A stretch of 64,000 nt of DNA, taken from positions 62,001 through 126,000 of the forward strand of contig NZ_JAEMNV010000009.1 in the NCBI RefSeq assembly GCF_016482825.1, in the 5' to 3' direction. Numbering within the stretch: position 1 is the first letter of the stretch; each line of letters opens with the position of its first letter. The translations under genes and the position numbers were made by a program. Source of the stretch: Antrihabitans stalagmiti (GTDB lineage Bacteria; Actinomycetota; Actinomycetes; Mycobacteriales; Mycobacteriaceae). Shown piece by piece: positions 2,709-62,137 of the stretch. The notes beneath the pieces were generated by a model. The model had not been told where the DNA came from. It saw only the letters and a program-made list of their open reading frames with translations, and ran no database searches.

Positions 2709-2820
2709 GGTCTGCCTCTCTTGCGGCGTGCGAGGCCGGGACTGAACGGTTCCGACCGAGAAGATGTTTTCCGATCCTTCTGGAACATTCGTGGAGCGCT
2801 CGTGGTGCGCCGGGAAACGG

Positions 2821-4311
2821 TCAGTCGCCCTTGAACCAGCCCGCTGGCTTCGGTGCGGTGTTGTGCCAGATATGTTTCATCTCTTGGTATTCCGCGAGTC
2901 CCGCCGGTCCGAGCTCGCGCCCGTTGCCCGACTTCTTGAACCCGCCCCACTCTGCGGCCGCCGTGTAGTAGCCGAAGTCGTTCAACCAGACCGTGCCGTG
3001 CCGCAGCGCACGGACTACCCGCTCACCACGCGCGGCGTCCGATGTCCGAACACCTGCTGCAAGACCGTATTCGGTGTCGTTGCCGAGCATGATCGCCTCC
3101 TCTTCCGTCGTGAACCGCTCGACGGTGAGAATGGGTCCGAACGTCTCTTCGGTGACGATGCGCATGGTGCGGTCGCATCGATCGAAGATCGTCGGTGGAT
3201 AGAAACTCCCGGTCGCGAAGGTCGGATCGGTCGGGCGTTCGCCACCGACCACCAGCTTCGCTCCCTCGGAAATACCAAGAGCCACATATGCTTCGACCTT
3301 CTCGCGGTGTTGCTCGGACACCAGTGGTCCGGTCTCGCTCGCGGGGTCGAGGCCGTTGCCGAACTTGATCTTCGCGGCTCGCTTCGCCAGTTCGGCAACG
3401 AAGTCGTCTGCGATGGATTCTTCGACGATCAACCTGGTTCCCGACGAGCACACTTGACCCGAATGCAGGAACACTCCCGTCAACACCTGATCGACCGAAC
3501 TTTCCCACTCGGCGTCGGCGAACACGATGTGCGGATTCTTTCCACCGAGCTCGACGGCAGCCTTGGTCACGCGTCGGGCTGCTATCTCGGCGATCCGACG
3601 TCCCGTCGCGAGGCCTCCGGTGAACGAGATCAGGTCGACGTCGTCGGTATCGGTAAGTGCTGCACCGAGAACCGCGCCACTACCCTGCACGAGATTCAGC
3701 ACACCCGGAGGCACGCCTGCTTCTTCGGCGAGGCGGACGAACGCGATCGTGGACAGCGGCGTGACCTCGCTCGGCTTCGCCACCATCGTGCAACCCGCTG
3801 CCAACGCGGGTGCGATCTTCCAGGAGATCTGCAGCAGTGGATAGTTCCACGGCGCGATGAGAACGCACACGCCGATCGGCTCGCGAACCACCCTGCTGAT
3901 CACCGTTGGGTCGCCGACGTCGACGAGCCGGTCCGACGACACCGCAATCAACTCGGCGTAGTACCTGAACACCGAGACGACGTCGTCGATGTCGATTCGG
4001 CTCTCCACCAACGTCTTGCCGGTGTCGTCGGTTTCGATCCGCGCCAGCAACTCCTTGTCGCGAACGAGTAGATCGGCGATGCGGGTCAGCAGCGCGGCGC
4101 GCTCCGACACAGGTGTTGCGGGCCACGATCCCTCGTCGAACGTGGCTCGAGCAGCTGCGACCGCGCGGGTTGCGTCGTCCGATGTCGCCTCGTCGACAAC
4201 GGCGACGACGCTGCCGTCGGCGGGATTGATCAACTCGCGCTTACCGCCGTCCGACGAGTGCACCCATGCACCGCCGATATACAGATCCGGGAGGTCACCG
4301 CTCACACTCAT
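2821..4311 (-). CDS. betB: NAD(P)-dependent aldehyde dehydrogenase, probable betaine aldehyde dehydrogenase
   Basis: At 496 residues this has the normal length for the aldehyde dehydrogenase superfamily. Visible landmarks are APWNYPL with Asn166, FTGGLATG in place of the usual FTGS cofactor loop, the general-base Glu264 in VELGGKNP and the catalytic Cys298 in GQVCSSGT. The enzyme would oxidise betaine aldehyde to glycine betaine with NAD(P)+, taking the product of the GMC dehydrogenase encoded further along the operon. Its ATG overlaps the Rieske oxygenase stop by 4 bp, indicating translational coupling. The Gly replacing Ser in FTGG is a small departure from most relatives. The superfamily is certain; the substrate rests on operon context. 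Confidence 0.86.
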   Translation of the reverse strand: MSVSGDLPDLYIGGAWVHSSDGGKRELINPADGSVVAVVDEATSDDATRAVAAARATFDEGSWPATPVSERAALLTRIADLLVRDKELLARIETDDTGKTLVESRIDIDDVVSVFRYYAELIAVSSDRLVDVGDPTVISRVVREPIGVCVLIAPWNYPLLQISWKIAPALAAGCTMVAKPSEVTPLSTIAFVRLAEEAGVPPGVLNLVQGSGAVLGAALTDTDDVDLISFTGGLATGRRIAEIAARRVTKAAVELGGKNPHIVFADAEWESSVDQVLTGVFLHSGQVCSSGTRLIVEESIADDFVAELAKRAAKIKFGNGLDPASETGPLVSEQHREKVEAYVALGISEGAKLVVGGERPTDPTFATGSFYPPTIFDRCDRTMRIVTEETFGPILTVERFTTEEEAIMLGNDTEYGLAAGVRTSDAARGERVVRALRHGTVWLNDFGYYTAAAEWGGFKKSGNGRELGPAGLAEYQEMKHIWHNTAPKPAGWFKGD

Positions 4312-5489
4312 TCGCCACCTTCGTTGCCCGAATTGCCCAGCTTGCCGACTATCCAGTTGTGGAACTCGGCGATGTGATGCTCGGCGGGGACGAGCACACC
4401 CCCATGACGGTATGCCCGTGACGACATTGCCGGTTGAGTTCGCTCACATGCGTCGAAATCTTGTTCGTTGACGCGGTGAAAAAGCTCGACGGACCGCGAG
4501 ACGTCGCGTCCTTCGGCAATCACATCCTCGGTGTACAACCAGTCGCATTCGACGATCGTGCGATCGTGCGCCATGGGATACATGCGGTGAAAGATGATGT
4601 GGTCGGGCACGAGGTTCACGAACACCGTCGGCCTTACCGTGATTGCGTAGTACTTACGATCCTGTTCCGGTGCGACGCCGGGCAGCGTCTCGAAGCCCGC
4701 CGAGCCGTCGATCGTGAATCCGGATACGTCGCTACCGAACTCGGCACCGTGGCCGACGAAGTACTGCGCGGCAAGCCCGTCCTTGAATTCCGGCAGCACC
4801 TCGGTCAGTTCGGGGTGGATGGTGGCGCAGTGATAGCACTCCATGAAGTTCTCGACGATGAGCTTCCAGTTCGCAGCGACGTCGTAGACAACCCGCCGGC
4901 CGACCTCCAGCTGGTCGATCCGATAGTTGTCGATCGCTGTCGGGTCGCCGAGCCGCTCGGTGATCGCACCCATCACCTCGGCCTCGAACGACGGCGGGTC
5001 GTCGGCGAGGCACACCCAGGCGTAGCCGAGCCATTCGCGCAGTGCCACAGGAACGAGACCGAATTCGACGCGGTCGATATCGCGTCCGGAAGCATCCTTG
5101 AGGGACGCCATGTTGGGCGCTGCAACAAGTTTGCCGTCGAGGCCGTAGGTCCAGGCGTGGTAGGGACACCGCAGATTTCTCCGCACCTGACCTTCGTCCT
5201 CGGTACACAACATCGCGCCGCGATGCCGACACACGTTGAGGAAAGCCCGTAGCTCGTGATCGCGGCCGCGGACGACGAGCACGCTCTCCCTGCCGACCTG
5301 AATCTTTCTGAATGCACCGGGATGTGCCAGGTCCCCAGCGCGGACCGCGCAGAACCACATCGCCTCGAAGACGTGCTCCTGTTCCGCTTCGAAGATGGCG
5401 GGGCTGGTATAGCTTTCGCCGCCCAACGTCCGGATCAGGGCTGGTCCGGGGGCGGGGTCGACAGTGTCGGGCAGGTCGGTTGTCGTCAT
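4308..5489 (-). CDS. Rieske non-heme iron oxygenase, glycine betaine demethylase-like (GbcA type)
   Basis: The 393-residue protein has a Rieske [2Fe-2S] site (Cys87, His89, Cys108, His111 in CRH and CPYH) and a mononuclear iron site with His220 and His225 in CYHCATIH. The bridging acidic residue is Glu217, where benzene-type dioxygenases have Asp; Glu is typical of the oxygenases acting on choline, carnitine and glycine betaine. The expected reaction is oxidative N-demethylation of glycine betaine to dimethylglycine and formaldehyde. It needs a reductase, and none is fused; the Rieske ferredoxin and ferredoxin reductase at 9028-10554 are candidates. The start ATG has a GGAGGTAA ribosome site that overlaps the upstream stop codon. 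Stachydrine or carnitine remain possible substrates. Confidence 0.85.
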   Translation of the reverse strand: MTTTDLPDTVDPAPGPALIRTLGGESYTSPAIFEAEQEHVFEAMWFCAVRAGDLAHPGAFRKIQVGRESVLVVRGRDHELRAFLNVCRHRGAMLCTEDEGQVRRNLRCPYHAWTYGLDGKLVAAPNMASLKDASGRDIDRVEFGLVPVALREWLGYAWVCLADDPPSFEAEVMGAITERLGDPTAIDNYRIDQLEVGRRVVYDVAANWKLIVENFMECYHCATIHPELTEVLPEFKDGLAAQYFVGHGAEFGSDVSGFTIDGSAGFETLPGVAPEQDRKYYAITVRPTVFVNLVPDHIIFHRMYPMAHDRTIVECDWLYTEDVIAEGRDVSRSVELFHRVNEQDFDACERTQPAMSSRAYRHGGVLVPAEHHIAEFHNWIVGKLGNSGNEGGE

Positions 5490-5495
5490 TGCCCG

Positions 5496-7949
5496 TTACC
5501 TCCGAATCCTGGTCATGTCGGGGTCGACGACGGGTTCGGTGTGTACGACCGCGGCCCGAGTGGTCCCCAGGTACTCGACAGTCACCACATCGCCGGGTTC
5601 CACTGTCGCGGGCAGCCAGGCGTAGGCGATGCAGCGCCCGATGGTCGCCGAGTATGCGGCGCTCGTGACATAGCCGACCGGGGCACCGTCGATCAGCACC
5701 GGTTCCTTGCCGAGCACGATTGCGGCTGGATCGTCGAAGACGATGCTGCGCAACATCGTCCGTGGTTCGTCGGCGGACTCGAGCGCCGCTTTTCCGATGA
5801 ACTCACCTTTCGCCGGGCGCACCGCAAAATCGACACCGGCCGCTTTCGGTGTGTGCTCGGCGGTCATGTCGGCGCCCCACGAGCGATAACCCTTTTCGAT
5901 TCGCAGACTGTTGAACGCGATCCGGCCTGCTGCTATGACGCCATGATCGCGGCCGGCCTGCCACAGCAGATCCCACAGTGCGGCACCGTGTTCGGCGGTC
6001 GTGTAGATCTCCCAACCGAGCTCTCCGACGTAGGAGACGCGCATCATCGTGACCGGGATCGCTCCGAGGTAGGTCTGCAAGGAACGGAAGTACTTCAAGC
6101 CCGGATGAGAAATATCGTCGGGACACAGGGGCTGCACCAGATCACGTGCTGCCGGACCCCAGACGCCGATACAACACGTGCCGCCGGTGATGTCGCGCAG
6201 TGTCACCGAGCCGTCGTCGGGTAGCTGCCGGGTGATCCAGTCGAAATCGAGTGGCCCGTTCGCGCCTACTTGAAAGCTCGTCGGGCTCAGCCGCGCAACG
6301 GTCAGATCGCTGCGGATGCCGCCGGTCTCGTCGAGCATCAGCGTGTAGGTCACCGACCCGACCGACTTGTCGAGATTGTTCGTCGTCAGACGTTGCAGCA
6401 ACTCGAGCGCCCCTGGCCCCGCGACCTCGTAGCGGGTCAGCGGTGTCATGTCGTACATCGCGACGTGCTCGCGGGTCCACACCGATTCCGCGATCGAGAT
6501 CGGCGAGTAGAACTTCGCCGACCATGGTTCGCGTTCCGGGATATGCGTACCCCGATCTCGAAGCTGCTGCAGCAGTGGTGCATTGGACTCGTACCAGGCC
6601 GGTCGCTCCCAACACCCGCCCTCGAAGAAGAAGGCGCCGAGTTCCTGCTCGCGGGTGTAGAACGGGCTCGTCCGCAGCCCGCGCAACTTCTCCCGGAACT
6701 GATGGGGGTGGACGATGTCGTAGACCTCGACGAAGGCCTGCGAACTGGTTTCGAGAATGAAATCTGCACTGAGCGCAGGCTTTTCAAACCTGTACAGATC
6801 GCATTCGTGGACATCGGTGCGTGGTGCACCCTCGATGATCCACTCCGCCATAGCTTTTGCGACGCCGGCCGAATGTGTCACCCACACTGCCTCGGCAACC
6901 CAGAAGCCGGACAGGTCGCGATGCTCCCCCATGATCGACATACCGTCGGGGGTGAAGGAGAAGATCCCGTTGAAACCCTCCTCGATCTTCGAATCACCCA
7001 GTGTGGGCAGCAATTGCAGACTTTCCCGCCAGGCAGGCGCGAAGTCGTCGTCGGTGAACGGCAGCATCGACGGCATCTGCTCGCCGGCGGTATCGGTCAG
7101 CAGCGTTGCCATGTCGACTGGCATCGGTTTGTGTCCGTAGTACCCGATGCCGATGCGATCGCCATGCTCGCGGTAATACAGATCCTGATCCTGATGACGA
7201 AGGATCGGCAGACCGGCTTCGGCAATGTCGCTGTTGCGGCCGACCAGTTCGGCCACCTGCCCCGTCTTGACGTATTGATGCGCCATCGGGACGAGCGGAA
7301 TCGTCAGTCCGACGGTCTTGCCGAGCTGGGCACCCCAGAAACCGGCGGCACACACGACGACGTCCGCGTCGACGACGCCGTCGGCTGTCCGGACACCTGT
7401 CACTCGGCCACCGGTGCTCAGCACTTCGACCACATCCTGATGTGGTCGAAACTGTGCTCCCCGTGCGATCGCGCGGTTGGCTTGCGCCTCCGCGGCGCGC
7501 AGTGACTTGGCCAGACCGTCTGCGGGGGTGTGGAATCCGCCGAGTATCCGGTCGGCATCGAGAAGCGGGTGCAGTGTCGCGCATTCGGCGGCGTCGAGCA
7601 GGCGACCTTGGATGCCCCAGGATTGCGCCCAACCCGACTTGCGGTGCAACTCGGTCAGTCGCTGCGGAGTCGTCGCGACCTCGAGCCCACCGACCGGATT
7701 GAAGCACCACCCGCCGGGATGCTCGAGGGACCCGAACTTGGTCGCGGTGTAGCGCGCGAACTCGCTCATCGTCTTCGACGGATTGGTCTGAAAAACCAAT
7801 CCTGGCGCGTGCGAGGTCGACCCGCCGGTCGCGAACAGTGGGCCGCGATCGAGGACGGTTACGTCCGTCCAACCGCGAGCGGTGATCTCGTCGGCCAACG
7901 ACGTGCCGACGATCCCGGCCCCGATGATGACGACTTTCGGCTGAGCCAC
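5496..7949 (-). CDS. FAD-dependent dimethylglycine/sarcosine dehydrogenase-like protein with GcvT domain
   Basis: The 817-residue protein combines an N-terminal D-amino-acid-oxidase-type FAD domain (GAGIVGTS near residue 10) with a folate-binding GcvT/aminomethyltransferase domain in the C-terminal half. The motif GGSTSHAPGL near residue 45 contains the His that carries covalent FAD in dimethylglycine and sarcosine dehydrogenases. It should convert dimethylglycine to sarcosine and pass the methyl group to tetrahydrofolate, following the Rieske enzyme encoded 6 bp downstream. I chose the GTG at 7949 because GGAGG sits just upstream and the protein then begins directly before the FAD motif; an in-frame extension to 8030 would run through the operator palindromes. 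This is the first gene of the operon. Confidence 0.87.
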   Translation of the reverse strand: MAQPKVVIIGAGIVGTSLADEITARGWTDVTVLDRGPLFATGGSTSHAPGLVFQTNPSKTMSEFARYTATKFGSLEHPGGWCFNPVGGLEVATTPQRLTELHRKSGWAQSWGIQGRLLDAAECATLHPLLDADRILGGFHTPADGLAKSLRAAEAQANRAIARGAQFRPHQDVVEVLSTGGRVTGVRTADGVVDADVVVCAAGFWGAQLGKTVGLTIPLVPMAHQYVKTGQVAELVGRNSDIAEAGLPILRHQDQDLYYREHGDRIGIGYYGHKPMPVDMATLLTDTAGEQMPSMLPFTDDDFAPAWRESLQLLPTLGDSKIEEGFNGIFSFTPDGMSIMGEHRDLSGFWVAEAVWVTHSAGVAKAMAEWIIEGAPRTDVHECDLYRFEKPALSADFILETSSQAFVEVYDIVHPHQFREKLRGLRTSPFYTREQELGAFFFEGGCWERPAWYESNAPLLQQLRDRGTHIPEREPWSAKFYSPISIAESVWTREHVAMYDMTPLTRYEVAGPGALELLQRLTTNNLDKSVGSVTYTLMLDETGGIRSDLTVARLSPTSFQVGANGPLDFDWITRQLPDDGSVTLRDITGGTCCIGVWGPAARDLVQPLCPDDISHPGLKYFRSLQTYLGAIPVTMMRVSYVGELGWEIYTTAEHGAALWDLLWQAGRDHGVIAAGRIAFNSLRIEKGYRSWGADMTAEHTPKAAGVDFAVRPAKGEFIGKAALESADEPRTMLRSIVFDDPAAIVLGKEPVLIDGAPVGYVTSAAYSATIGRCIAYAWLPATVEPGDVVTVEYLGTTRAAVVHTEPVVDPDMTRIRR

Positions 7950-7963
7950 AAGAGCCTCCAGTT

Positions 7964-7999
7964 GTTGCGCAGCACGCAACATGGTGTGCAGTACGCAAC
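7964..7999. promoter_or_regulatory. Candidate IclR operator pair upstream of the betaine operon
   Basis: Positions 7964-7980 form a perfect 17-bp palindrome with GTTGCG and CGCAAC arms around a 5-bp centre. A second, imperfect copy with one clear CGCAAC arm lies at 7983-7999, 19 bp away centre to centre. The same kind of 17-mer lies in front of the ferredoxin gene (8996-9012). The pair sits directly upstream of the GTG start of the dimethylglycine dehydrogenase-like gene and downstream of the iclR gene. Binding by that regulator is inferred. Confidence 0.6.
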
Positions 8000-8087
8000 A
8001 AAGCGTGAACCTCGAAAAGCCCCTTGTCAACCAGTGTGAGCAGACGAAATCAGCCCGACACAGATTGGTTACTCGGGCGGCGGAATG

Positions 8088-8903
8088 TCAGCGACGAGAC
8101 AGGCGGGGTAGGTACCCGAGGCGCGCACTGATTTCAGCTCCGACGTCGACTGCCCGTGCCGCGAGATCGTCGAATCGGGCTGCGGGCATCCGATAGGCCG
8201 GACCCGAAATTGTCAGCGCACCAACAATTTTCGAGGTGTGATCGCGAACGGGAGCCGCCAGCGCGTGCAGTCCCGTCTCCAGTTCCTCCACTGCGACGAT
8301 CCAGCCTTGCTCGCGCGCCTGAGCCAAATTACGTTCGAGTGCCGGATATGTCGTGATCGTGTTGTCCGTATATTTTTCGAGCTTCGCACCGAGGCGTTCG
8401 CGCAACTCCTGTGCAGACAGTTCACTGATCAACATCTTGCCGCTCGACGTCGCGTGCGCCGGACTCGCCTGGCCGACCCAGGTTCGCAGCGAGACGCCTG
8501 CCGCACCTGCGGCCTCGACGATGTTGATCGCCCGATCGCCCTCGAGGATCGCGAGGTTGACGGTCTCGCCCACCTCCTCAGCAAGGGCGTCGCAGCGCGC
8601 TTGCGATGCCTTCGAAAGATCCTGACCCGCAACCGTGGCACCCGCGAGTCGCACGACCGTGAACCCGAGGCGGTACTTGCCCCGATCGCTCAGCTGCTCC
8701 ACGAACCCACGCTTTTCGAGGACACCGACGAGACGCGAGACCGTGGACTTGTGTACACCCAGCTCATCGGCGATTTCGGTGATGCCTGCCGAACCTTGCG
8801 CGGCAAGTATTTCCAGGACGAGCAACGCACGATCGACCGACTGCACGGCAGCGCCCGAACGCCGGTCCGCGTCGTTGCCGTCGATCTGTTCGCGATCGCT
8901 CAT
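8088..8903 (-). CDS. IclR-family transcriptional regulator
   Basis: From the ATG at 8903 the protein has 271 residues, a normal IclR length. An N-terminal winged helix (about residues 20-75, with ITEIADELGVHKSTVSRLVG as recognition region) is followed by the IclR effector domain, including the SGKMLISEL stretch. A longer frame reaching 9011 would run through the operator region, so the shorter start is preferred. The gene lies between the betaine operon, which it points towards, and the divergent ferredoxin gene. Both promoters carry related 17-bp palindromes. It probably controls both in response to a betaine-pathway compound; sign and ligand are unknown. Confidence 0.88.
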   Translation of the reverse strand: MSDREQIDGNDADRRSGAAVQSVDRALLVLEILAAQGSAGITEIADELGVHKSTVSRLVGVLEKRGFVEQLSDRGKYRLGFTVVRLAGATVAGQDLSKASQARCDALAEEVGETVNLAILEGDRAINIVEAAGAAGVSLRTWVGQASPAHATSSGKMLISELSAQELRERLGAKLEKYTDNTITTYPALERNLAQAREQGWIVAVEELETGLHALAAPVRDHTSKIVGALTISGPAYRMPAARFDDLAARAVDVGAEISARLGYLPRLSRR

Positions 8904-8977
8904 GTGGCCAACGTTAGTCCGACCGGCGTTCGATGTCCGATTCTCGTCTTGACGGGCGGGGCGAAACAAGGCACCCT

Positions 8978-9012
8978 GTTGCATATAGCGCGCCTGTTGC
9001 GTTATAAGCAAC
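8978..9012. promoter_or_regulatory. Candidate IclR operator pair between iclR and the ferredoxin gene
   Basis: Positions 8996-9012 hold a 17-bp inverted repeat with GTTGC and GCAAC arms, and 8978-8994 an imperfect tandem copy starting GTTGC, 18 bp away. The arms and the 17-bp length match the palindrome at 7964-7980. The better copy ends 15 bp before the ferredoxin ATG, and both lie upstream of the divergent iclR gene, so autoregulation is plausible. Confidence 0.6.
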
Positions 9013-9027
9013 TCGCTAAGGATTCAG

Positions 9028-9375
9028 ATGACTGGTACAGCGACTTCCGTCACCGCCTCGACCGTCCGCGTCTGCCGCCTCGACGAACTACCCGTCGGAG
9101 AGGTCCACACAGCCAAGATTCCCGGCCGTGCAGCGATCTCGATCTTTCACACGGACGAGGGCCTGTTTGCGATCGACGACACGTGCACCCATCAGGATGC
9201 GTCGCTTGCCGACGGCTGGGTCGAAGACTGCACCGTCGAATGTCCTTTGCACGAATCATGTTTCGATTTGCGCACCGGCCTGGTTTCGGGCCCACCCGCG
9301 AAGGTTGCAGTGCAGACCTACGGCGTCGCTGTCAGCGACGGCGACGTGTACCTGGAACTTCCGACAACGCCATGA
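9028..9375 (+). CDS. Rieske-type [2Fe-2S] ferredoxin
   Basis: This 115-residue protein is a single Rieske domain with the ligand set Cys53, His55, Cys72 and His75 (CTH and CPLH motifs). Small Rieske ferredoxins of this kind pass electrons from an FAD reductase to Rieske oxygenases. The next gene, overlapping by 4 bp, is such a reductase, and the only Rieske oxygenase in the window is the betaine-type enzyme at 4308-5489. The pair is therefore the likely electron supply for betaine demethylation. Family assignment is secure; partner choice is inferred from location and from the shared palindromes. Confidence 0.9.
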   Translation: MTGTATSVTASTVRVCRLDELPVGEVHTAKIPGRAAISIFHTDEGLFAIDDTCTHQDASLADGWVEDCTVECPLHESCFDLRTGLVSGPPAKVAVQTYGVAVSDGDVYLELPTTP

Positions 9376-10554
9376 ATCCGCCGGATTCCGTTGCCGTAGT
9401 CGGCGCATCGCTCGCTGGTCTGTCCGCGGTGTGCATTGCGCGCCGAGGGCTACAGCGGGGCGATCACTGTTGTCGGCGACGAGGTGCACCTGCCCTACGA
9501 CCGCCCACCCCTTTCGAAGGAATTTCTGCACGGCAACGACCACAACGTGCCGCTGGTCGAACCCGGCAGCGACGATGCTGACCAACTCGACGTCACTTGG
9601 CTGCTCGGCCGCAGGGCGATCGGCCTCACAGCACGGCCGGACTCCCGCCACGAACTTCTTCTCGCCGACGGTTCGGCCGTCACTGCCGATCAGGTTGTCA
9701 TCGCAACGGGCGCGCGTGCCCGGACCCTTCCGAACCTGGCCGAACTCGATGGGGTGCACACGCTACGCACACTCGACGACGCCAGAGCACTGCGGGATTC
9801 GCTTGCATCGTCGCTGCGTCTCGTTGTGATCGGCGCAGGGTTCATCGGTGCCGAGGTCGCGTCGTCGGCCGCTGCACTCGGCCTCGATGTGACGATCGTC
9901 GAAGCCTCACCAACTCCCCTTGCCGGCATTCTCGGCGCAGAACTCGGCGCACTGTGCGTCGCCAAGCACAGCGCCAACGGAGTCCGGCTGCGCACGGGCG
10001 TCACAGTCGAGCGACTGCTCGGAGACAAGCGCATCTCCGGCGTCGAACTGAGCGACGGCTCCGTACTGCGGTGCGAAGCGCTCGTCGTTGGCATCGGGGC
10101 TGTGCCCAACGTCGAGTGGGCAGCGATGTCGGAGATCGACGTCGACAACGGCTTCCTGACCGATTCCCAGTGCAGGACTTCGATTTCGGGCATCTACGCG
10201 ATCGGCGATTGCGCGCGCACCTACGTCGACGAACTCGGTACCCATCACCGAAGCGAGCACTGGACGAACGCGACCGCGCAGGCGCGCACCGTCGCTCGCA
10301 CGATCATGGGAAGTACCGAAGCAACAGCGACCGCACCGTATTTCTGGTCCGATCAGTACGGCGCTCGTCTGCAGTTCGCTGGTCGCCGCCGGCCGGACGA
10401 CGACGTGAAATTCGTCGACGGCAACGCGGATGCCGCGTCGTTCACGGTCGTCTACGAACGCTCGGGCGAGGTTGTCGCAGTGTTCGCACTCGACAATCCC
10501 CGCCTGTTCACTCGCTACCGCAAGCAGATCGAACGGGCTCGCTCACGCGTGTGA
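9372..10554 (+). pseudogene. FAD/NAD(P)-dependent ferredoxin reductase, frameshifted
   Basis: The gene should begin at the ATG at 9372, overlapping the ferredoxin stop by 4 bp. That frame encodes the FAD motif VAVVGASLAGLSAV, but then runs out of the family sequence near 9430. The remaining protein (LRAEGYSG, LPYDRPPLSKEF, the NAD-binding VVIGAGFIGAEVASS and the C-terminal domain) continues in another frame from about 9433 to 10554. Two bases appear to be missing near 9430. Translation from the in-frame TTG at 9436 would lack the FAD dinucleotide motif and is unlikely to be functional. It resembles BphA4/rubredoxin-reductase-type enzymes of about 390-410 residues. Either the gene is broken or the sequence has an error; its 3' end overlaps the convergent gcvH-like gene by 12 bp. 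Confidence 0.8.
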
Positions 10555-10863
10555 CGGCAGCACCGCGAACAGCCAGCCCGCACCACCCGGATCCGACGTC
10601 GTCAACTCGGGATGGCGGCCGACCTCGTCGTTGACAATGGTGACTCGCCCGCTGACGGGTGAGAACAGCCCCGTTGTATTCGCAGCGGACGTCGCAGCAC
10701 CACACTGCATTCCCGCTTCGACGAACGTCCCGACAGTTGGCAACTCGAGTGCCGTCACAGCACCGACCGACTTTGCGGCATCCGGCGACAGGCTGACCCG
10801 CACCGGCGATTCGAAGAAGTTTCTGCTGGTAGCAATCGTCAACCAGTCGTGTTCTACAGACAT
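10543..10863 (-). CDS. Glycine cleavage H-protein-like protein lacking the lipoyl lysine
   Basis: The 106-residue protein aligns along most of a GcvH H-protein: EHDWL at the N-terminus, ELPTVGTFVEAG, FSPVSGRV and VNDEV followed by PEL and GWLF near the end. In true H-proteins the segment before SPVSG is ESVKAASD, whose Lys is lipoylated. Here it is TSAANTTG, so Ala61 stands in the Lys position; the only Lys in the protein is Lys31, far from the loop. It cannot carry lipoate in the normal way. It is the last gene of the sarcosine oxidase operon, 31 bp after purU. It could be a structural or folate/one-carbon accessory protein. Homology is clear; function unknown. Confidence 0.8.
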   Translation of the reverse strand: MSVEHDWLTIATSRNFFESPVRVSLSPDAAKSVGAVTALELPTVGTFVEAGMQCGAATSAANTTGLFSPVSGRVTIVNDEVGRHPELTTSDPGGAGWLFAVLPSHA

Positions 10864-10894
10864 GGGCCGTGCCTCTCTTCGATCGATTCGGTTC

Positions 10895-11743
10895 TCAACG
10901 AAATACGACGGTGCTCGTGTCGTTCAGCAGTACTCGATGCTGGCAATGCCAGCGCACGGCTCGCGACAGCGCGATCGCTTCCGCGTCACTGCCGACCGTT
11001 GCGAGGCGCCCCGGATCGAAGGTGTGATCGATCCGAATCACCTCCTGCTCGATGATCGGACCCTCGTCCAGGTCGGGGGTCACGTAATGCGCTGTGGCGC
11101 CGACATACTTGACGCCGCGGTCGAACGCCTGGTGGTAGGGCTTCGCACCTTTGAACCCCGGCAGGAAGGAATGGTGAATGTTGATCGCGCGTCCGTGCAG
11201 CGCGCGGCACAGGTCGTCGGACAGCACCTGCATGTAGCGCGCAAGGACGACCAGGTCGACTTCGTACTCCGAGACGAGTTCCAGTAGCCGAACTTCGGCG
11301 TCGGCTTTGGTGTCCGGTGTCACCGGCACATGGATGTACGGCAGCCCGACCGCTTCTGCCATCGCCCGCAGGTCCTCGTGATTGGACACGACGGCGACGA
11401 TTTCCGCGCCCAATGTGCCCGAGCGCCAACGGAAGATGAGGTCGTTGAGGCAGTGTCCGAGCTTGGACACCATCACGAGTATCCGCTGCGGTCGGTCGTC
11501 GGCGATCTCGAAGGAGGTACCGAGTTCGTTGGCAATCTCGTCGAATTGGGCGGCGAGGGTTTCGGTGTTCGATTCCTCTGCGGACACGAATGCCGTTCGC
11601 ATGAAGAACGATCCGCGCCGGACGTCGTCGAACTGCTGATGCTCGACGATGTCGCAACCGTGCTGGAAGAGGAACGAACTGATCGAACCGACGATCCCCG
11701 GACGTTCCTTGCAGGTCAGTGTCAACGTGAAGTTGGTTGTCAT
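10895..11743 (-). CDS. purU: Formyltetrahydrofolate deformylase
   Basis: The 282-residue protein has an N-terminal ACT domain (about residues 5-85) and a C-terminal formyltransferase-fold hydrolase domain. The catalytic INIHHSFLPGF (Asn188, His190) and DLDEGPI (Asp226) motifs are present. It hydrolyses 10-formyl-THF to formate and THF. In this operon it would recycle the folate loaded with one-carbon units by sarcosine oxidase and the dimethylglycine dehydrogenase-like enzyme. The ATG at 11743 overlaps the soxG stop by 4 bp; a longer frame upstream only reads soxG out of frame. Cytoplasmic. Confidence 0.93.
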   Translation of the reverse strand: MTTNFTLTLTCKERPGIVGSISSFLFQHGCDIVEHQQFDDVRRGSFFMRTAFVSAEESNTETLAAQFDEIANELGTSFEIADDRPQRILVMVSKLGHCLNDLIFRWRSGTLGAEIVAVVSNHEDLRAMAEAVGLPYIHVPVTPDTKADAEVRLLELVSEYEVDLVVLARYMQVLSDDLCRALHGRAINIHHSFLPGFKGAKPYHQAFDRGVKYVGATAHYVTPDLDEGPIIEQEVIRIDHTFDPGRLATVGSDAEAIALSRAVRWHCQHRVLLNDTSTVVFR

Positions 11744-12333
11744 CGTGATCCTTCGATGTCGATGAATTCTGTTGCGGCGTCGAGGATCCACGCCGCGAAA
11801 TAGTGCGCGAACGACGATCGGACCAGGATTCGGTAGTTGGTTCCGGTGCCGTCCACTGCCATCAGCACGACACCCGCCTGACCGACCATGGTTTGCGCTG
11901 CGGTACCGGGAACGAACACACGTGGGTGTAGGTCGAGCGAGCAACCCTGCTCTAGCAGGTCGCGGGCGTTGGCACCCCGAAGCAACAGCGAGGTGCGTTG
12001 CGCCGAAACGTCCGTCGCGGTTCCGCCGAACGGGCCGACCAACTCGCGCAGTTCGGTTTCGAAGGTGACGCCGGCGTCGACCGTGCTGGTGATCAGCCAT
12101 TCGTCGGGACCGAGCCAGATCGCCGCGATGTCACCACCGACCGTGTATGTGGATGCCGCAGTGGGCAATTGGAACCCGATACGAGCGGCCACCGCATCGG
12201 CACCCGCGGCGTCCGAACGCAGATCGATCATCGTCACACACGGTTCCTCGGTCACCTGCAGCGTCGCGGGCAACACAGCGAACCGCGGTGCCCAGCTCGC
12301 CAACGGACTTGTACGCACCAAGGTTTCAGCCAT
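11740..12333 (-). CDS. soxG: Sarcosine oxidase gamma subunit
   Basis: This 197-residue protein matches the small gamma subunit of heterotetrameric sarcosine oxidase, with the GcvT-like fold features WLGPDEWLI and VSAQRTSLLLRGANARDLL. The gamma subunit binds the GcvT-like half of the alpha subunit and has no cofactor of its own. It overlaps soxA by 8 bp at its start and purU by 4 bp at its end, keeping the soxB-D-A-G order found in other bacteria. Identification rests on sequence character together with this order. Confidence 0.92.
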   Translation of the reverse strand: MAETLVRTSPLASWAPRFAVLPATLQVTEEPCVTMIDLRSDAAGADAVAARIGFQLPTAASTYTVGGDIAAIWLGPDEWLITSTVDAGVTFETELRELVGPFGGTATDVSAQRTSLLLRGANARDLLEQGCSLDLHPRVFVPGTAAQTMVGQAGVVLMAVDGTGTNYRILVRSSFAHYFAAWILDAATEFIDIEGSR

Positions 12334-15151
12334 CGCGACGGGCCCCTTCCGGGTCTACGAGTACGGAGCCGGTTACTTCGACACGAACCAAGGTCGAGCC
12401 GATCGGCACGTGCAGAGTCTCACCGATTCGGGACCGCCCTGCCTGGACGAGAGCGAGGGCGAAGGACCGGCCGAGCTCGGCCGAACGGTAACTGGAGGTC
12501 ACGTACCCGACCATGGGAACCGGTGGCGGCGGCAGAGTCTCGTCGTTGCGGAACTCGATGATCTGCGATCCTTCGGGAAGGACGACATCGCGATCGGTCG
12601 GCAGCAGCCCGACCAGCTGGCGGCGCAACGGATTCTGATTCTCGGTGCGTGCGAACGATCGCTTGCCGATGAAATCGAGCTTCTTCTTCGACACCGCCCA
12701 ACCCATCCCGAGATCCTGCGGGGTGACTGTCCCGTCCGTGTCCTGACCGACGATCGGGTAACCCTTCTCGGCGCGCAGAACGTGCATGGTCTCGGTGCCG
12801 TACGGGGTGATCCCGTAGGGCTCCCCTGCCTCGATCAGGCGTTCCCACAACGGTTGTGCGTACCAGGAATTGACGTTGACCTCGTAGGCAAGCTCGCCGG
12901 AGAAGCTGATGCGTGCCACCCGGACGGGTACCTCTCCGATGCTGGTGTCGCGCCACGTCATAAACGGGAACGATTCGTTCGCGACGTCGAGATCAGGGAA
13001 CACAGCGGCGACCACGTCGCGCGAGCGCGGACCGACAACGGGGAACGTCGACCAGTGTTCGGTGACCGAGGCGAGGCGAACCCGAAGGTCGGGCCATTCG
13101 GTCTGGACCCACTCCTCCATCCACTCCAAAATCTTCGCGGCACCACCGGTTGTGGTGAACACGATGAAGCGGTTCGCCTCCAGGCGCATGACGGTGCCGT
13201 CGTCGATGACCATCCCGTCGACGCCACACATCACGCCGTAGCGGACGCTGCCGACCTTCAGGTTGCTCATCATGTTGGTGTAGATCCGGTCGAGTAGTTC
13301 GCCCGCGTCCTCGCCCTGCACGTCGATCTTGCCGAGCGTCGAGCCGTCCAGAATGCCGACGGACGTTCTGACGGCGGCACATTCGCGCAGCACCGCGGCG
13401 TCCATGTCCTCGTTCGGTCGCGGGTAGTGCCGAGGTCGCTTCCACTGCCCGACGTCCTCGAAGACCGCGCCATGCTCCACGTGCCAATCATGCAGCGCCG
13501 TCGTGCGTTCCGGATCGAAGAGCGTGCCTCGGCCGCGCCCGGCGAGTGCTGCGAAGGCAACCGGTGTGTACGGCGGGCGGAAGGTGGTGGTGCCGAGGTC
13601 GGCGATCGGCACCCCGAGCAGGTCGGCCGTGATACCCGACGCGATGACACCCGACGTCTTGCCTTGATCGTGCGCGGTGCCGATTGTTGTGTAGCGCTTG
13701 ATGTGTTCCATCGATCGCATCCCGGCACCGACGGCCCTGCGCAGGTCTGCGACGGTGGCATCACGTTGCAGATCGACGAACGAGGTGGCACCCGTGCTAC
13801 CCGCTGCGGTATCGGCAACGTGCCACAGGACCAGCGGTTCGGCCTCGACCTGCGCGCCGGACGCTTCGGGGAGGGAGGCGTCGTCGCCCATTCCGGCGTC
13901 CGTCGCCGCACGCTTACCGTCGCGCAGGCAGCCTGCGAGGTCGAGCACACCGTTCGCGGACCCGGCTACCTGAACGCCGTCGAGACTCTCACCGGGAACG
14001 AACGCGCCCAGGCCGTCGTCGTAGCGCAGCTCTCCGCGAACCTGGCTGAACAGGTGCACAGCGGGATTCCAGCCGCCGCTGACCAGCAGGAGGTCGCACG
14101 GGATCGACTCGTCTCCGACCAGTGCGTGACTGATTCGGTCGGTCCCGGACGTTCCGCTGACCACGGCCCCGGAATGCACGGCAATACCGCGCCTGGCACA
14201 TTCCTGTTGCAGCGCAGCGGGTCCGTCGGCGCGGGCGTCGACCACGGCGTTGATCGTGACGCCGGCGTCGGCGAGGTCGAACGCAGCGACGTACGCACTG
14301 TCGTTGGTCGTGAAGACGACAGCCTCGTTACCCGCACGCACTCCGTAGCGATGCAAGAACGTGCAGGCACCGTCGGCGAGCATGATGCCGGGGCGGTCGT
14401 TGTCTCCGAACACGATCGGACGCTCGTGCGCGCCGGACGCGATCACGGTGTGGCGCGCCCGAATTCGCCATACTCGTTGGCGCGAAACATTTTTCGGTGC
14501 ATCGAAGCCGAGATGGTCGGTGCGACGTTCGAGTGCGAGGACGAAGCCGTCGTCATAATTGCCGAAAGCTGTTGTGCGCTGCAGGTGCCGCACCTCGGGG
14601 AAGGTCGCCAACTCCGCGACCACGTCGCGCACCCAGGCTGTGGCAGGTGCACCGTCGATCGAGTCGGCGCTACCGAGCAGAGACCCGCCCGCTTCGGATT
14701 GCTCGTCGATCAGGACAACCCGGGCGCCACTTCGAGCAGCCGTCAGTGCAGCGATCAAGCCGGCGGGTCCCGCCCCGACCACAAGCACATCGGTATGCAG
14801 ATGTCGTGCATCGTAACGACTTTCATCGGCCGAGTCGGCCAACCTGCCGCGACCGGGAATACCGTTGGCGACCAATCCGTCGTAGAGCTCGACGGTGCTG
14901 GCAAGCAACATCGCCTCGGGAAAGGGCGCCTCGATCTGCACGAGGCCGCCGGTGTCTTCTGCCCACGCCGCGGTGATGCCGCGCGGGCGCCCGAATTTGA
15001 TGCTGGTGGTGATCTTTCCGATGCCGTGTGCAAGCAATGCAGAAGCAAGGGTGTCACCCCGGTAGCCGGTCAGCGGCTGGCCGTCGAAGATGAAGCTGTA
15101 CGGGGTGTTTCGGTCGATTCGTCCGCCGCTAGTGCGAAAGGGCTCTGTCAT
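12326..15151 (-). CDS. soxA: Sarcosine oxidase alpha subunit
   Basis: With the ATG at 15151 the protein has 941 residues, the usual size for the large subunit. The N-terminal part has a 2Fe-2S-ferredoxin-like ubiquitin-fold segment (SFIFDGQPLTGYRGDTLASALLAHG split over residues 15-45), then an FAD/NAD-binding region (DVLVVGAGPAGLIAAL near residue 118). The C-terminal third is a GcvT folate-binding domain. Heterotetrameric sarcosine oxidase converts sarcosine to glycine and forms 5,10-methylene-THF when THF is available. The start overlaps soxD by 4 bp; an upstream extension of 59 codons reads through soxD out of frame and was rejected. Confidence 0.94.
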   Translation of the reverse strand: MTEPFRTSGGRIDRNTPYSFIFDGQPLTGYRGDTLASALLAHGIGKITTSIKFGRPRGITAAWAEDTGGLVQIEAPFPEAMLLASTVELYDGLVANGIPGRGRLADSADESRYDARHLHTDVLVVGAGPAGLIAALTAARSGARVVLIDEQSEAGGSLLGSADSIDGAPATAWVRDVVAELATFPEVRHLQRTTAFGNYDDGFVLALERRTDHLGFDAPKNVSRQRVWRIRARHTVIASGAHERPIVFGDNDRPGIMLADGACTFLHRYGVRAGNEAVVFTTNDSAYVAAFDLADAGVTINAVVDARADGPAALQQECARRGIAVHSGAVVSGTSGTDRISHALVGDESIPCDLLLVSGGWNPAVHLFSQVRGELRYDDGLGAFVPGESLDGVQVAGSANGVLDLAGCLRDGKRAATDAGMGDDASLPEASGAQVEAEPLVLWHVADTAAGSTGATSFVDLQRDATVADLRRAVGAGMRSMEHIKRYTTIGTAHDQGKTSGVIASGITADLLGVPIADLGTTTFRPPYTPVAFAALAGRGRGTLFDPERTTALHDWHVEHGAVFEDVGQWKRPRHYPRPNEDMDAAVLRECAAVRTSVGILDGSTLGKIDVQGEDAGELLDRIYTNMMSNLKVGSVRYGVMCGVDGMVIDDGTVMRLEANRFIVFTTTGGAAKILEWMEEWVQTEWPDLRVRLASVTEHWSTFPVVGPRSRDVVAAVFPDLDVANESFPFMTWRDTSIGEVPVRVARISFSGELAYEVNVNSWYAQPLWERLIEAGEPYGITPYGTETMHVLRAEKGYPIVGQDTDGTVTPQDLGMGWAVSKKKLDFIGKRSFARTENQNPLRRQLVGLLPTDRDVVLPEGSQIIEFRNDETLPPPPVPMVGYVTSSYRSAELGRSFALALVQAGRSRIGETLHVPIGSTLVRVEVTGSVLVDPEGARRDG

Positions 15152-15441
15152 GACAATGTCGGCTTCTGCTCGGTCGGCTTCGGATCGGAGGGGCGGTAGA
15201 CACTCTGGAAGCGATACGTCGCAGTGTCGCGTACCGCGTTGAACCAGCGGCGGCATCCGGCTGCGTGGTACCACCGCTCCGCGAAGGCGCCCTTCGGATT
15301 CGAACGGAAGAACACGTAGTGGGCCCACTGCTCGTCGGTCAGCGCAGCAGGGTCACTCGGGTATGCGACGTGCGCTTGGCCGCCGTAGTGATACTCGGTT
15401 TCTTCACGCGAGCCGCACCAGGGGCATTCGATGAGTTGCAT
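15148..15441 (-). CDS. soxD: Sarcosine oxidase delta subunit
   Basis: The 97-residue protein shows all four zinc ligands of the delta subunit at their canonical positions: Cys6 and Cys9 in CPWCG, His59 and Cys63 in YHAAGC. It caps the alpha subunit in the heterotetramer. The ATG at 15441 lies 11 bp after the soxB stop, and the gene overlaps soxA by 4 bp. A much longer frame reading up through soxB is a shadow. Confidence 0.95.
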   Translation of the reverse strand: MQLIECPWCGSREETEYHYGGQAHVAYPSDPAALTDEQWAHYVFFRSNPKGAFAERWYHAAGCRRWFNAVRDTATYRFQSVYRPSDPKPTEQKPTLS

Positions 15442-15452
15442 GTTGTGCCCTT

Positions 15453-16694
15453 CTAGTGCGCGACGGCTGCGGCGCCGTGTTCGTCGACCAACGCGCCAGT
15501 GACGAACCGATCCAGACTGAAGGGCGCGATGTACGGATGGGGTTCGTCGTAGGCGAGGGTCTGAGCAAGGCACCAGCCGAGACCGGGCGTTGCCTTGAAA
15601 CCGCCTGTCCCCCAGCCACAGTTGAGGAACACGTTGTCGTAGGGCGTGCGGCCGACGATCGGCGATGCGTCCGGGCACACGTCCACGATGCCGCCCCAAC
15701 TTCGGAGCAGGTGCGCGCGCGCGAAGATCGGAAACAGCTCGACCGCCGCTGCCATCTGCCGCTCGATGATGTGGAATGCGCCGCGCTGACCGAAGCCGTT
15801 GTAGGAGTCGATACCCGCCCCCATCACCAACTCTCCCTTGTGCGCCTGGGAGACGTAGACGTGCACGGCATTCGACATGACGACGGTCGGGTGCACAGGC
15901 TCGAGTAGCTCGGAGACCAATGCCTGCAGTGGATGGCTTTGCACGGGAACGGCTATGCCGAGCATGTCGGTCAGCACCGACGTGTGCCCGGCCGCGCACA
16001 GCGCGACTTTGCCTGCGCCGATCGTGCCGCGATTGGTCCGGACACCCGTCACGCGGTTTCCGTCGGTCTCGAACCCGACAACCTCGCAACCCTGGATGAT
16101 GTCGATGCCGGCAGCGTCGGCTCGGCGTGCGAAACCCCATGCGACGTAGTCGTGTTTCGCGATGCCCGCGCGCGGTTGGTAGGTCGCTCCCAGGACCGGA
16201 TAGCGGATGTCGTCGGAGACGTTGACGATCGGGCACAGCTCCTTGACGCCGTCGGGCCCGACCCACTCCGCGTCGATGCCGTTGAGCCTGTTGGCTTCTA
16301 CACGTCGCACACTGTCGCGCACGTCCTGCAGGCTGTGCGCGAGGTTCAGCACGCCTCGCTGACTGAACAGGATCGGATACCCGAGATCTTCTTCGAGCCC
16401 CTCCCAGAGTTTGAGCGAGTGTTCGTAGATCGCCGAACTCTCGTCCCACAGATAGTTCGATCGAATAACCGTCGTGTTGCGGGCCATGTTGCCGCCCGCG
16501 AGCCAACCCTTCTCCAGCACAGCAACATTGGTGATGCCGTGGTTCTGGGCAAGGTAGTGGGCCGTTGCAAGTCCGTGCCCGCCGCCGCCGATGATCACGA
16601 CGTCGTAGGTCCGCCGCGGTTCGGGGTTGCGCCACAGAAAGTCAGGGTGTTCCAGCTGTTCGGCGCCAGGACCCATCTGGTCGGTTCGGTACAT
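15453..16694 (-). CDS. soxB: Sarcosine oxidase beta subunit
   Basis: From the ATG at 16694, which has GGAG eight bases upstream, the protein is 413 residues, matching the family. It has an N-terminal FAD motif ([19 protein letters not shown], residues 31-49) and the DAO fold. His181 in IAKHDYVAW is the likely site of covalent FMN, judged by position relative to known SoxB proteins. This subunit oxidises sarcosine. It is the first gene of the operon soxBDAG-purU-gcvH-like. The upstream region, shared with the divergent GntR gene, holds a 14-bp palindrome at 16726-16739 that may control it. A longer in-frame extension into the GntR gene was rejected. Confidence 0.94.
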
Positions 16695-16739: not shown

Positions 16740-16820
16740 GTGTGTCGTTAGAGTAGAGTGCGTGTAGGTCGTGGTCAACAGGTCGTAGAAATATTCGTCG
16801 GAACACTCACAGGAGGCACC

Positions 16821-17483
16821 GTGAGCCTTGCACCGCTGCTCACCGAGAGCGCGCCGACCGATGCGGATCGCGCCTACGAACTCATCCGCGAGCGCCTCGT
16901 CCTGCTCGACATCCGCCCGAACGAGCCGATCAACGACGATGTCGTCGCGCGGTCGCTCGGGTTCGGCCGCACGCCGGTCCGCGAAGCGCTGAAACGACTC
17001 GAGCGCGATCGCCTCGTCGTCGCCTTCCCGCGGCGCGGCACCTTCGCAACGACGGTCGACATCACCGACCTCGCGCACATCTCGGAGATCCGCAAACAAT
17101 TGGAGCCGCTCGCCGCCGCGCGGGCAGCGAGCAGTGCGGGCGCGGCGACAAAGCTCCGCCTGACCGATCTCGCCGAGGAGATTTCCCAGATCGCCCCTAC
17201 CGACCACGACAATCGCGCACTACTGCAGATCGACGTGCGCGTGCACCGGGAGATCTACCGCGCCTCGGGCAATCCGTACCTGGAGGATGTGCTCGTCTGC
17301 CAGGACGCACACGCGACGCGAATCTGGTGCCTTTTCCTCGACCGCCTACCCGACGTCGCAAGCCATGTTCGCGAACATATTCCGCTGCTGCACGCCATCA
17401 TCGACGGCGACGCGGACAAAGCCGCCGAATTGACGATCGAACACGTCGTCGGTTTCGAGAATGCGATCCGCGCCCTGCTCTGA
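16821..17483 (+). CDS. GntR-family (FadR/FCD subfamily) transcriptional regulator
   Basis: The 220-residue protein has an N-terminal winged helix with the GntR recognition region [14 protein letters not shown] and a C-terminal FCD effector domain with metal-binding-type residues in DVRVHREIY and a later HIPLLHAI segment. I chose the GTG at 16821 because GGAGG lies just upstream; an in-frame extension to 16758 lacks such a site. The gene is divergent from soxB across about 125 bp and followed 45 bp later by aspA, so it may regulate sarcosine use, aspartate use or both. Ligand unknown. Confidence 0.88.
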
Positions 17484-61552: not shown

Positions 61553-62137
61553 CTATTCGAGGATGGCTCGACCTTGTTGAGGATGAGTCGCCAGGTTCTT
61601 TGCGGTTGTGTGACGATCGGCGTCGCAGTTCGCAACCGATTCACGACGCCCGGCATCGATGTACCCCGCGATTGCGAGAGCTGAAATCAACACGCCTACC
61701 ACCACGTCGTTGCCGACTGCGAACGTAGAGCCGGAAGTCAGTCCGTAGTCGACTCCGAGCGGCGCAACGACAAGAGCCATGCCCGACACGCAGCCGAATA
61801 CGGTCGCGTGCACGACGCTGACTCGCCGAATCAACCGAAGCAGGCCGAGCACAACGACTCCCGACCCGATGGCCATGTCGAACAGCGGATCTTGCAGCGA
61901 CGGAACCGACCATGTTCTACGCAGCAGAATTGGGCCGACTACAAGCCAAATGCCAAGTACGAGAGTGCATGTGCTGATCATGCCCGGAACTTGCGGACCC
62001 GGAACTCGCCGGTGCCACCGCTCGCGTCGGTTCGGGAACGACGCGGCACCGTCATCGGGGCCTGAGACAGCACGAATGCCGCCTGTGACGTCGAGACCCG
62101 ACGGGTGTGCCGTCTGTGCTCGATCCTGTGAGCTCAC
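61553..62137 (-). CDS. SPW-repeat-like membrane protein
   Basis: From the GTG at 62137 (GAGGGG site upstream) the protein has 194 residues: a polar N-terminus of about 45 residues, then four membrane spans. The spans include LVLGIWLVVGPILL and IGSGVVVLGLLRL, of the SPW-repeat type found in actinobacterial four-helix membrane proteins of unknown role. A 21-bp box lies 70 bp upstream and a further copy lies inside the 3' end of this gene. A longer frame to 62323 would enter the response regulator leader and was rejected. Confidence 0.72.
   Translation of the reverse strand: MSSQDRAQTAHPSGLDVTGGIRAVSGPDDGAASFPNRRERWHRRVPGPQVPGMISTCTLVLGIWLVVGPILLRRTWSVPSLQDPLFDMAIGSGVVVLGLLRLIRRVSVVHATVFGCVSGMALVVAPLGVDYGLTSGSTFAVGNDVVVGVLISALAIAGYIDAGRRESVANCDADRHTTAKNLATHPQQGRAILE
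61596..61616. repeat. 21-bp box, copy 2, inside the SPW gene and upstream of the small gene
   Basis: It reads TTCTTTGCGGTT then GTGTGACGA. It lies 67-87 bp upstream of the small gene start at 61529, within the last codons of the SPW-type gene. It differs from copy 3 at two positions. Confidence 0.6.

Follow-up and report, generated by a model that had tools for sequence, protein, structure and literature searches.

GcvH paralogues devoid of the lipoyl lysine are encoded in sarcosine oxidase clusters of one actinobacterial family

H-protein is the textbook carrier of the glycine cleavage system, whose known chemistry there runs through its lipoyl lysine. We analysed a stretch of 64,000 nucleotides from Antrihabitans stalagmiti (positions 62,001 to 126,000 of contig NZ_JAEMNV010000009.1; hereafter the window), in which a sarcosine oxidase soxBDAG operon, ordered soxB-soxD-soxA-soxG-purU-H, ends with the gene of an H-like protein devoid of this lysine. 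The locus comprises the following features, some of which rest on an open reading frame (ORF).

10543 to 10863, minus strand: lysine-less GcvH-like protein of 106 residues, with Ala61 at the lipoyl-lysine position (ORF, GCV_H profile and alignment)
10895 to 11740, minus strand: purU, formyltetrahydrofolate deformylase (TIGR00655, 329.9 bits for a cut-off of 285.95)
11740 to 12333, minus strand: soxG, sarcosine oxidase gamma subunit (PF04268, 71.5 bits)
12326 to 15154, minus strand: soxA, sarcosine oxidase alpha subunit, whose C-terminal part is GcvT-like; start codon approximate (TIGR01372, 1195.6 bits for a cut-off of 1164)
15148 to 15441, minus strand: soxD, sarcosine oxidase delta subunit (PF04267 at G000:C44:77193-77435, that is, window 15193-15435)
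15453 to 16694, minus strand: soxB, sarcosine oxidase beta subunit, its 5' end taken from a preliminary description of the window (ORF and identity to same-place genes)
16758 to 17483, plus strand: divergent GntR/FCD regulator (PF00392, PF07729), found by synteny beside many sox clusters
9436 to 10554, plus strand: ferredoxin reductase, convergent with the H-like gene (PF07992, PF14759)
5496 to 8030, minus strand: dimethylglycine dehydrogenase-like protein of this catabolic cluster, carrying DAO and GCV_T domains; dimethylglycine is its putative substrate (PF01266, PF01571, PF08669)

The H-like ORF begins with ATG 31 nucleotides downstream of purU, and its 3' end shares 12 nucleotides, tail to tail, with the ferredoxin reductase gene. 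The gene soxB was identified by its ORF and same-place identity alone rather than by a family search of its own; identity to the same-place gene of other sox clusters was 81-96%, and 44% in one case (L115, genome G184). NCBIfam GcvT models matched the C-terminal part of SoxA with 197 bits, under their cut-offs. No glyA match was found within window positions 1-22000. Between 1155 and 9011 we noticed a permease, an aldehyde dehydrogenase, a Rieske oxygenase resembling betaine monooxygenase, the dimethylglycine dehydrogenase-like protein and an IclR regulator, and a Rieske ferredoxin lies with the ferredoxin reductase on the opposite strand, on the H-like gene side of the cluster. The whole looks like a cluster for the breakdown of choline or betaine to glycine; we took the names betaine and dimethylglycine from gene order.

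The preliminary description, made from the DNA letters without database searches, had placed a GcvH homologue without its lipoyl lysine behind soxB-soxD-soxA-soxG-purU, and this picture held. The gene order was recovered by NCBIfam and Pfam matches, and for soxB by its ORF and same-place identity. The relationship to GcvH was established by the Pfam GCV_H profile, which matched residues 21-103 with 52.8 bits (cut-off 22.2), and alignment placed Ala61, within the loop TSAANTTG, opposite Lys-64 of Escherichia coli H-protein and left Lys31 as the sole lysine of the protein. The more specific NCBIfam models were missed. The window protein scored 58.4 bits against the gcvH equivalog (TIGR00527; cut-off 115.85), that is, half the required value, 35.1 bits against TIGR03077 not_gcvH (equivalog cut-off 144.05) and 17.9 bits against the GcvH-related model NF045810 (equivalog cut-off 150). 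No NCBIfam model passed its cut-off in the three members of the class that were scanned (the window protein, L042 and L041), and GCV_H was the sole Pfam match in the two scanned against Pfam. The best Protein Data Bank (PDB) relative of the class profile was 3tzu (E 1.2e-34). The nearest relative of the window protein, in genome G003 (58-59% identity), contains no lysine at all. Relatives from other genera are longer than the window protein, by about 11 residues at the N-terminus and by 8-22 at the C-terminus. An AlphaFold model built from two sequences had a mean predicted local distance difference test (pLDDT) score of 36.7. The window genome also encodes a second, ordinary GcvH with its lysine (contig C1, 126.7 bits), about 3 kb from a P-protein match.

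We evaluated the spread of such proteins in a sample of 301 genomes of the same family, searched with the window protein and with an alignment (A1) of 14 lysine-less relatives. Once duplicates, rows contained in other rows, matches under 80 residues and the broken frames of genome G298 were set aside, 71 distinct H sequences were read, and the lipoyl lysine was present in 51 and absent in 20. The residue found in its place was R in 10, A in 3, H, G and T in 2 each, and W in 1. These 20 proteins came from 20 genomes of five genera (g1, g6, g19, g23 and g24) and took the top 20 scores of the A1 search. As no score gap divides them from the lysine-bearing group (145.4 versus 143.1 bits), we defined the class by the residue and not by the score. 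The class has at least 20 members, since among lower-scoring matches the residue was read for those in the 71 rows only. G298 holds a further H-like copy, broken over several frames amid broken neighbouring genes, which was left out of the count. In its stretch L094, around 2800-15000, the H-like, sdaA and oxygenase genes all appear frame-broken and SoxA was not found, which points to decay or poor assembly. Outside the family, no listed match exceeded 129.2 bits in 397 genomes of the order, the best one (L118) keeping its lysine, and none exceeded 107.0 bits in 246 genomes of the phylum, where the residues were unread. A separate scan for related loci gave one distant, lysine-bearing match. 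A plasmid search gave a best identity of 42.5% among the 40 of 115 records listed, which were labelled glycine cleavage H-protein or nothing and whose lysines were unread.

The loss reaches beyond the lysine. Residues were counted on a new alignment and numbered as in the E. coli protein. Glu-61, three residues ahead of the lysine, is presumably important for lipoylation; together with Glu-14 and Ser-67 it was present in 51/51 lysine-bearing sequences and in 0/20 lysine-less ones. At position 68, all 51 of the former have D or E and all 20 of the latter T or G, so that the lipoyl-arm site made of E14, E61, K64, S67 and D68 is lost throughout the class; the window protein has D, T and G at positions 14, 67 and 68. 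Glu-12 is retained in 4 of the 20, and Tyr-70 is kept as Y or F in 16. According to passages of a published study (PMC7733448), Glu-12, Glu-14, Ser-67, Asp-68 and Tyr-70 of the E. coli protein hold and release the aminomethyl-lipoyl arm. The class retains the H-protein positions W, LP, P, N, DP and GW, and R22, C54, T75 and GWLFA are among its invariant residues.

Selection was assessed by the ratio of non-synonymous to synonymous changes (dN/dS). Among lysine-less genes, pairwise values ranged from 0.09 to 0.47 for pairs with a proportion of non-synonymous differences (pN) under 0.25, the two values above 0.4 coming from pairs with very few changes. Between the window and G003, the H-like gene gave 0.30, to be compared with 0.03 for soxB, 0.08 for soxD, 0.09 for purU, 0.12 for the ordinary GcvH, and 0.18 for both soxG and the ferredoxin reductase gene. 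The H-like gene is thus under constraint, though weaker than that on its neighbours. The preliminary description had argued against decay, and this was borne out: conserved lysine-less relatives and dN/dS values below 0.5 in the pairs given rule decay out, and the occurrence of such relatives in 19 further genomes likewise rules out a local mutation. Of two outcomes named beforehand as refuting, neither came about: homologues from sox clusters are without the lysine in all 20 sequences read, and the GCV_H profile match is solid. Collectively, these data show a conserved class of GcvH paralogues in which the lipoyl lysine and arm residues are lost while the rest of the H sequence pattern is under purifying selection, and which is encoded in sarcosine oxidase clusters of one actinobacterial family.

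In a tree computed without the lysine loop, the 20 lysine-less proteins formed one clade (bootstrap 99, Shimodaira-Hasegawa-like approximate likelihood ratio test (SH-aLRT) 75, not starred), nested in a wider group (100/99, starred) that also takes in 14 H-proteins with the lysine, and the best tree required one change of lysine state. The two lysine-less branches, one with the window protein and that of G003 and one with the remaining 18, are long, and the program warned that they may have been grouped in error; the lysine may thus have been lost twice. A lysine-bearing H-protein of the same tree group is also present in eight of the 20 genomes, at nine places in total, each with a P-protein match within 5 kb. 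These second H-proteins are the lysine-bearing group nearest to the class; they differ from it in keeping the ESTK motif and the arm contacts. At L049, where the neighbours were read by eye, they were glyA and sdaA. In G065, a genome without a SoxD match, a serine dehydratase gene adjoins the gene of the lysine-bearing sequence nearest to the class. The likely path is that a gcvH-glyA-sdaA set was joined to soxBDAG and that lipoate was lost afterwards.

SoxD (PF04267) was matched in 40 of the 301 genomes, 39 of them over the cut-off. It was matched in all 20 genomes with a lysine-less H as against 20 of the 281 others (Fisher p 1.7e-20, genomes not being independent); the G277 match is a short fragment that scores below the cut-off, and G021 has a partial gene lying at the end of a contig. 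Hence sox accompanies lysine-less H in every genome seen. Against this, soxBDAG occurs in as many genomes without the H-like gene as with it. The gene itself lies within the sox stretch in 19 of the 20, the G021 copy being on a contig of 7.2 kb that is without sox. In the genera other than that of the window it directly precedes sdaA (18 of the 20), with a four-base overlap (ATGA or GTGA) in eight and a distance of 3-4 nucleotides in eight more. The H-bearing stretches also contain glyA (17/20) and folP (14/20). On account of these three counts, we assign the H-like gene to the version of the cluster that would lead from sarcosine through glycine and serine to pyruvate. The preliminary description had tied the operon both to sarcosine oxidation and to formate release. 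The first tie stood and the second, as a special one, did not: the H-like gene lies mostly before sdaA, and purU adjoins it in the window and in G003 only.

Several observations were made on these clusters in passing. A protein of about 245 residues follows sdaA in 11 loci of g19 and g23 (L042:7417-8145, minus strand; L044:5644-6381, plus strand; and the corresponding place in L050, L054, L057 and L109-L114). Its L042 copy had no Pfam match and its L044 copy no NCBIfam match, and it may be an unnamed family tied to sarcosine clusters. L044:1473-3602 (minus strand) encodes a GATase joined to a chorismate-binding enzyme, probably for p-aminobenzoate. The presence of such folate-making genes, that is, this enzyme and dihydropteroate synthase, in or beside sarcosine clusters suggests that the clusters bring their own folate supply.

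The preliminary description had inferred a role other than aminomethyl transfer, a view supported by the loss of the lipoyl lysine across a conserved class, and lysine-less H probably serves one-carbon metabolism in a new, non-catalytic way. The known partners of H-protein are the P-, T- and L-proteins and the lipoyl-attaching enzymes, and ordinary H-proteins dock on the folate domain of GcvT. Our preferred reading, a tentative one, is that lysine-less H is a cofactor-free docking or regulatory protein acting on a GcvT-like folate domain. We favour it because the protein has no lipoyl-arm site and because domains of the GcvT type occur in both SoxA and the dimethylglycine dehydrogenase-like protein. 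Lysine-less H would work without cofactor and dock on the GcvT-like domain of one of these two proteins, or on GcvT itself. It would there tune or shield the step that yields methylene-tetrahydrofolate (methylene-THF), and glycine and methylene-THF would then pass to serine through GlyA and to pyruvate through SdaA, or to formate through PurU. A more doubtful extension is that the class acts as a protein switch, clamping the GcvT-type folate domains of sarcosine oxidase, dimethylglycine dehydrogenase or the glycine cleavage system, and deciding whether methyl-group carbon exits as methylene-THF. In a bolder version, Cys54 may replace lipoate as the thiol that carries the one-carbon unit. This residue is conserved in 20/20 lysine-less sequences and is not specific to the class, since 40 of the 51 lysine-bearing ones have it too.

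Three observations weigh against docking on a GcvT-like domain. The enzymes in question do occur without lysine-less H: for the 20 genomes that have soxD and no intact H copy, SoxA turned up in 18 stretches and the dehydrogenase-like protein in 12. The H-like gene tracks sdaA more closely than any SoxA feature examined. Lastly, the copy in the window changes more rapidly than the genes around it, as the dN/dS values above show (0.30 versus 0.03-0.18).

The tracking of sdaA could mean, though we consider it rather unlikely, that lysine-less H is a partner of the iron-sulfur L-serine dehydratase SdaA, as a subunit, stabilizer or assembly helper. Such a role would explain the tight H-sdaA coupling described above and agrees with the serine dehydratase gene beside the lysine-bearing sister in G065. 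It agrees as well with the 20 soxD genomes lacking an intact H, of which G298 alone, with its broken copy, has sdaA on the sox strand; in G030 and G293 sdaA lies on the opposite strand. An obligate partnership is weakened by the window genome, which is 99.99% complete and gave no match to the iron-sulfur serine dehydratase family PF03313, present in G002, G003, G065 and 9 of 14 controls. The H-like protein can therefore persist without SdaA. In G003, which belongs to the genus of the window, the order is soxG-sdaA-purU-H, so that purU separates the two genes, and the co-variation of H and sdaA, assessed on a SoxB tree, came down to three independent changes (p 0.25, not significant). This tree holds one wrong row (L111, a stray frame with 16% of columns filled) and served just to assess co-variation and to show that the two SoxB proteins of G289 are identical. 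A second sox cluster in that genome (L116, G289:C3:5663600-5683400), whose SoxB is identical to that of the first, has sdaA in its stretch and no H-like gene, which also speaks against the partnership. Stretches L101 and L106 end at a contig edge, where an absent gene means little, L095 and L108 are extra stretches of G298, and L117 (G002) was left out. As a side observation, PF03313 is missing from the whole genomes of both G000 and G001, although both further species of the genus that were searched have one such protein.

A somewhat less probable role is that of a decoy of the glycine cleavage system, in which lipoate-free H would bind P- or T-protein and slow glycine cleavage while the oxidation of sarcosine or betaine supplies methylene-THF. 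The target exists, as a P-protein gene is found in 20/20 genomes and the window genome has its ordinary lysine-bearing GcvH, and such regulation would suit a pathway making methylene-THF in excess. A decoy is harder to reconcile with the 31% identity between the window protein and the GcvH of its own host (residues 4-99) and with the loss of Glu-14 and Glu-61.

It is improbable that the gene is a relic, that is, a GcvH captured with glyA-sdaA, then deprived of function and kept by translational coupling to sdaA. Fast evolution, the variable residue at the lysine position, the shorter ends in the genus of the window and the broken copy of G298 would fit a relic. They are opposed by dN/dS values well under 1 across genera, by 23 invariant columns in the 14 sequences of A1, by a new conserved Thr at E. 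coli position 68 (18/20) and by the retention of H in the window genome devoid of serine dehydratase. Attachment of lipoate elsewhere, which would leave the protein a carrier, can be dismissed: nine of the 14 A1 proteins do retain one to three lysines (at positions 2, 5, 31, 107, 121, 133, 134 and 136), none at a position common to the nine, and the other five have no lysine anywhere.

Among the known systems closest to the class, GcvH of glycine cleavage belongs to the same profile family and shares the retained positions listed above; the lysine-less class differs by the missing lipoyl lysine, Glu-14, Glu-61, Ser-67 and acidic residue 68, and by its place in a sox cluster. LbpA of Hdr-like sulfur oxidation is also a GcvH-like protein recruited to an oxidation cluster outside glycine cleavage, but passages of PMC6067878 describe, over 95 aligned LbpA sequences, a strictly conserved lysine needed for lipoate attachment, which the lysine-less class does not have. 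The glyA-soxBDAG-purU operon of Corynebacterium and Colwellia has the same core genes and pathway, and gcvH is unmentioned in the text of the paper describing it (PMC3691474). A literature search over titles and abstract openings, subscription papers being mostly outside its scope, returned no description of a lysine-less H-protein in a sarcosine cluster.

Annotated with the Pfam model alone, such genes would be called glycine cleavage H-protein, which is misleading. Given that a conserved lysine-less group is under selection, the H-protein scaffold would seem to be useful even without its cofactor, and the fixed place of the group in sarcosine clusters indicates where to look for that role. 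It also opens the question of whether the GcvT-like folate domains of sarcosine and dimethylglycine oxidases may have a protein regulator.

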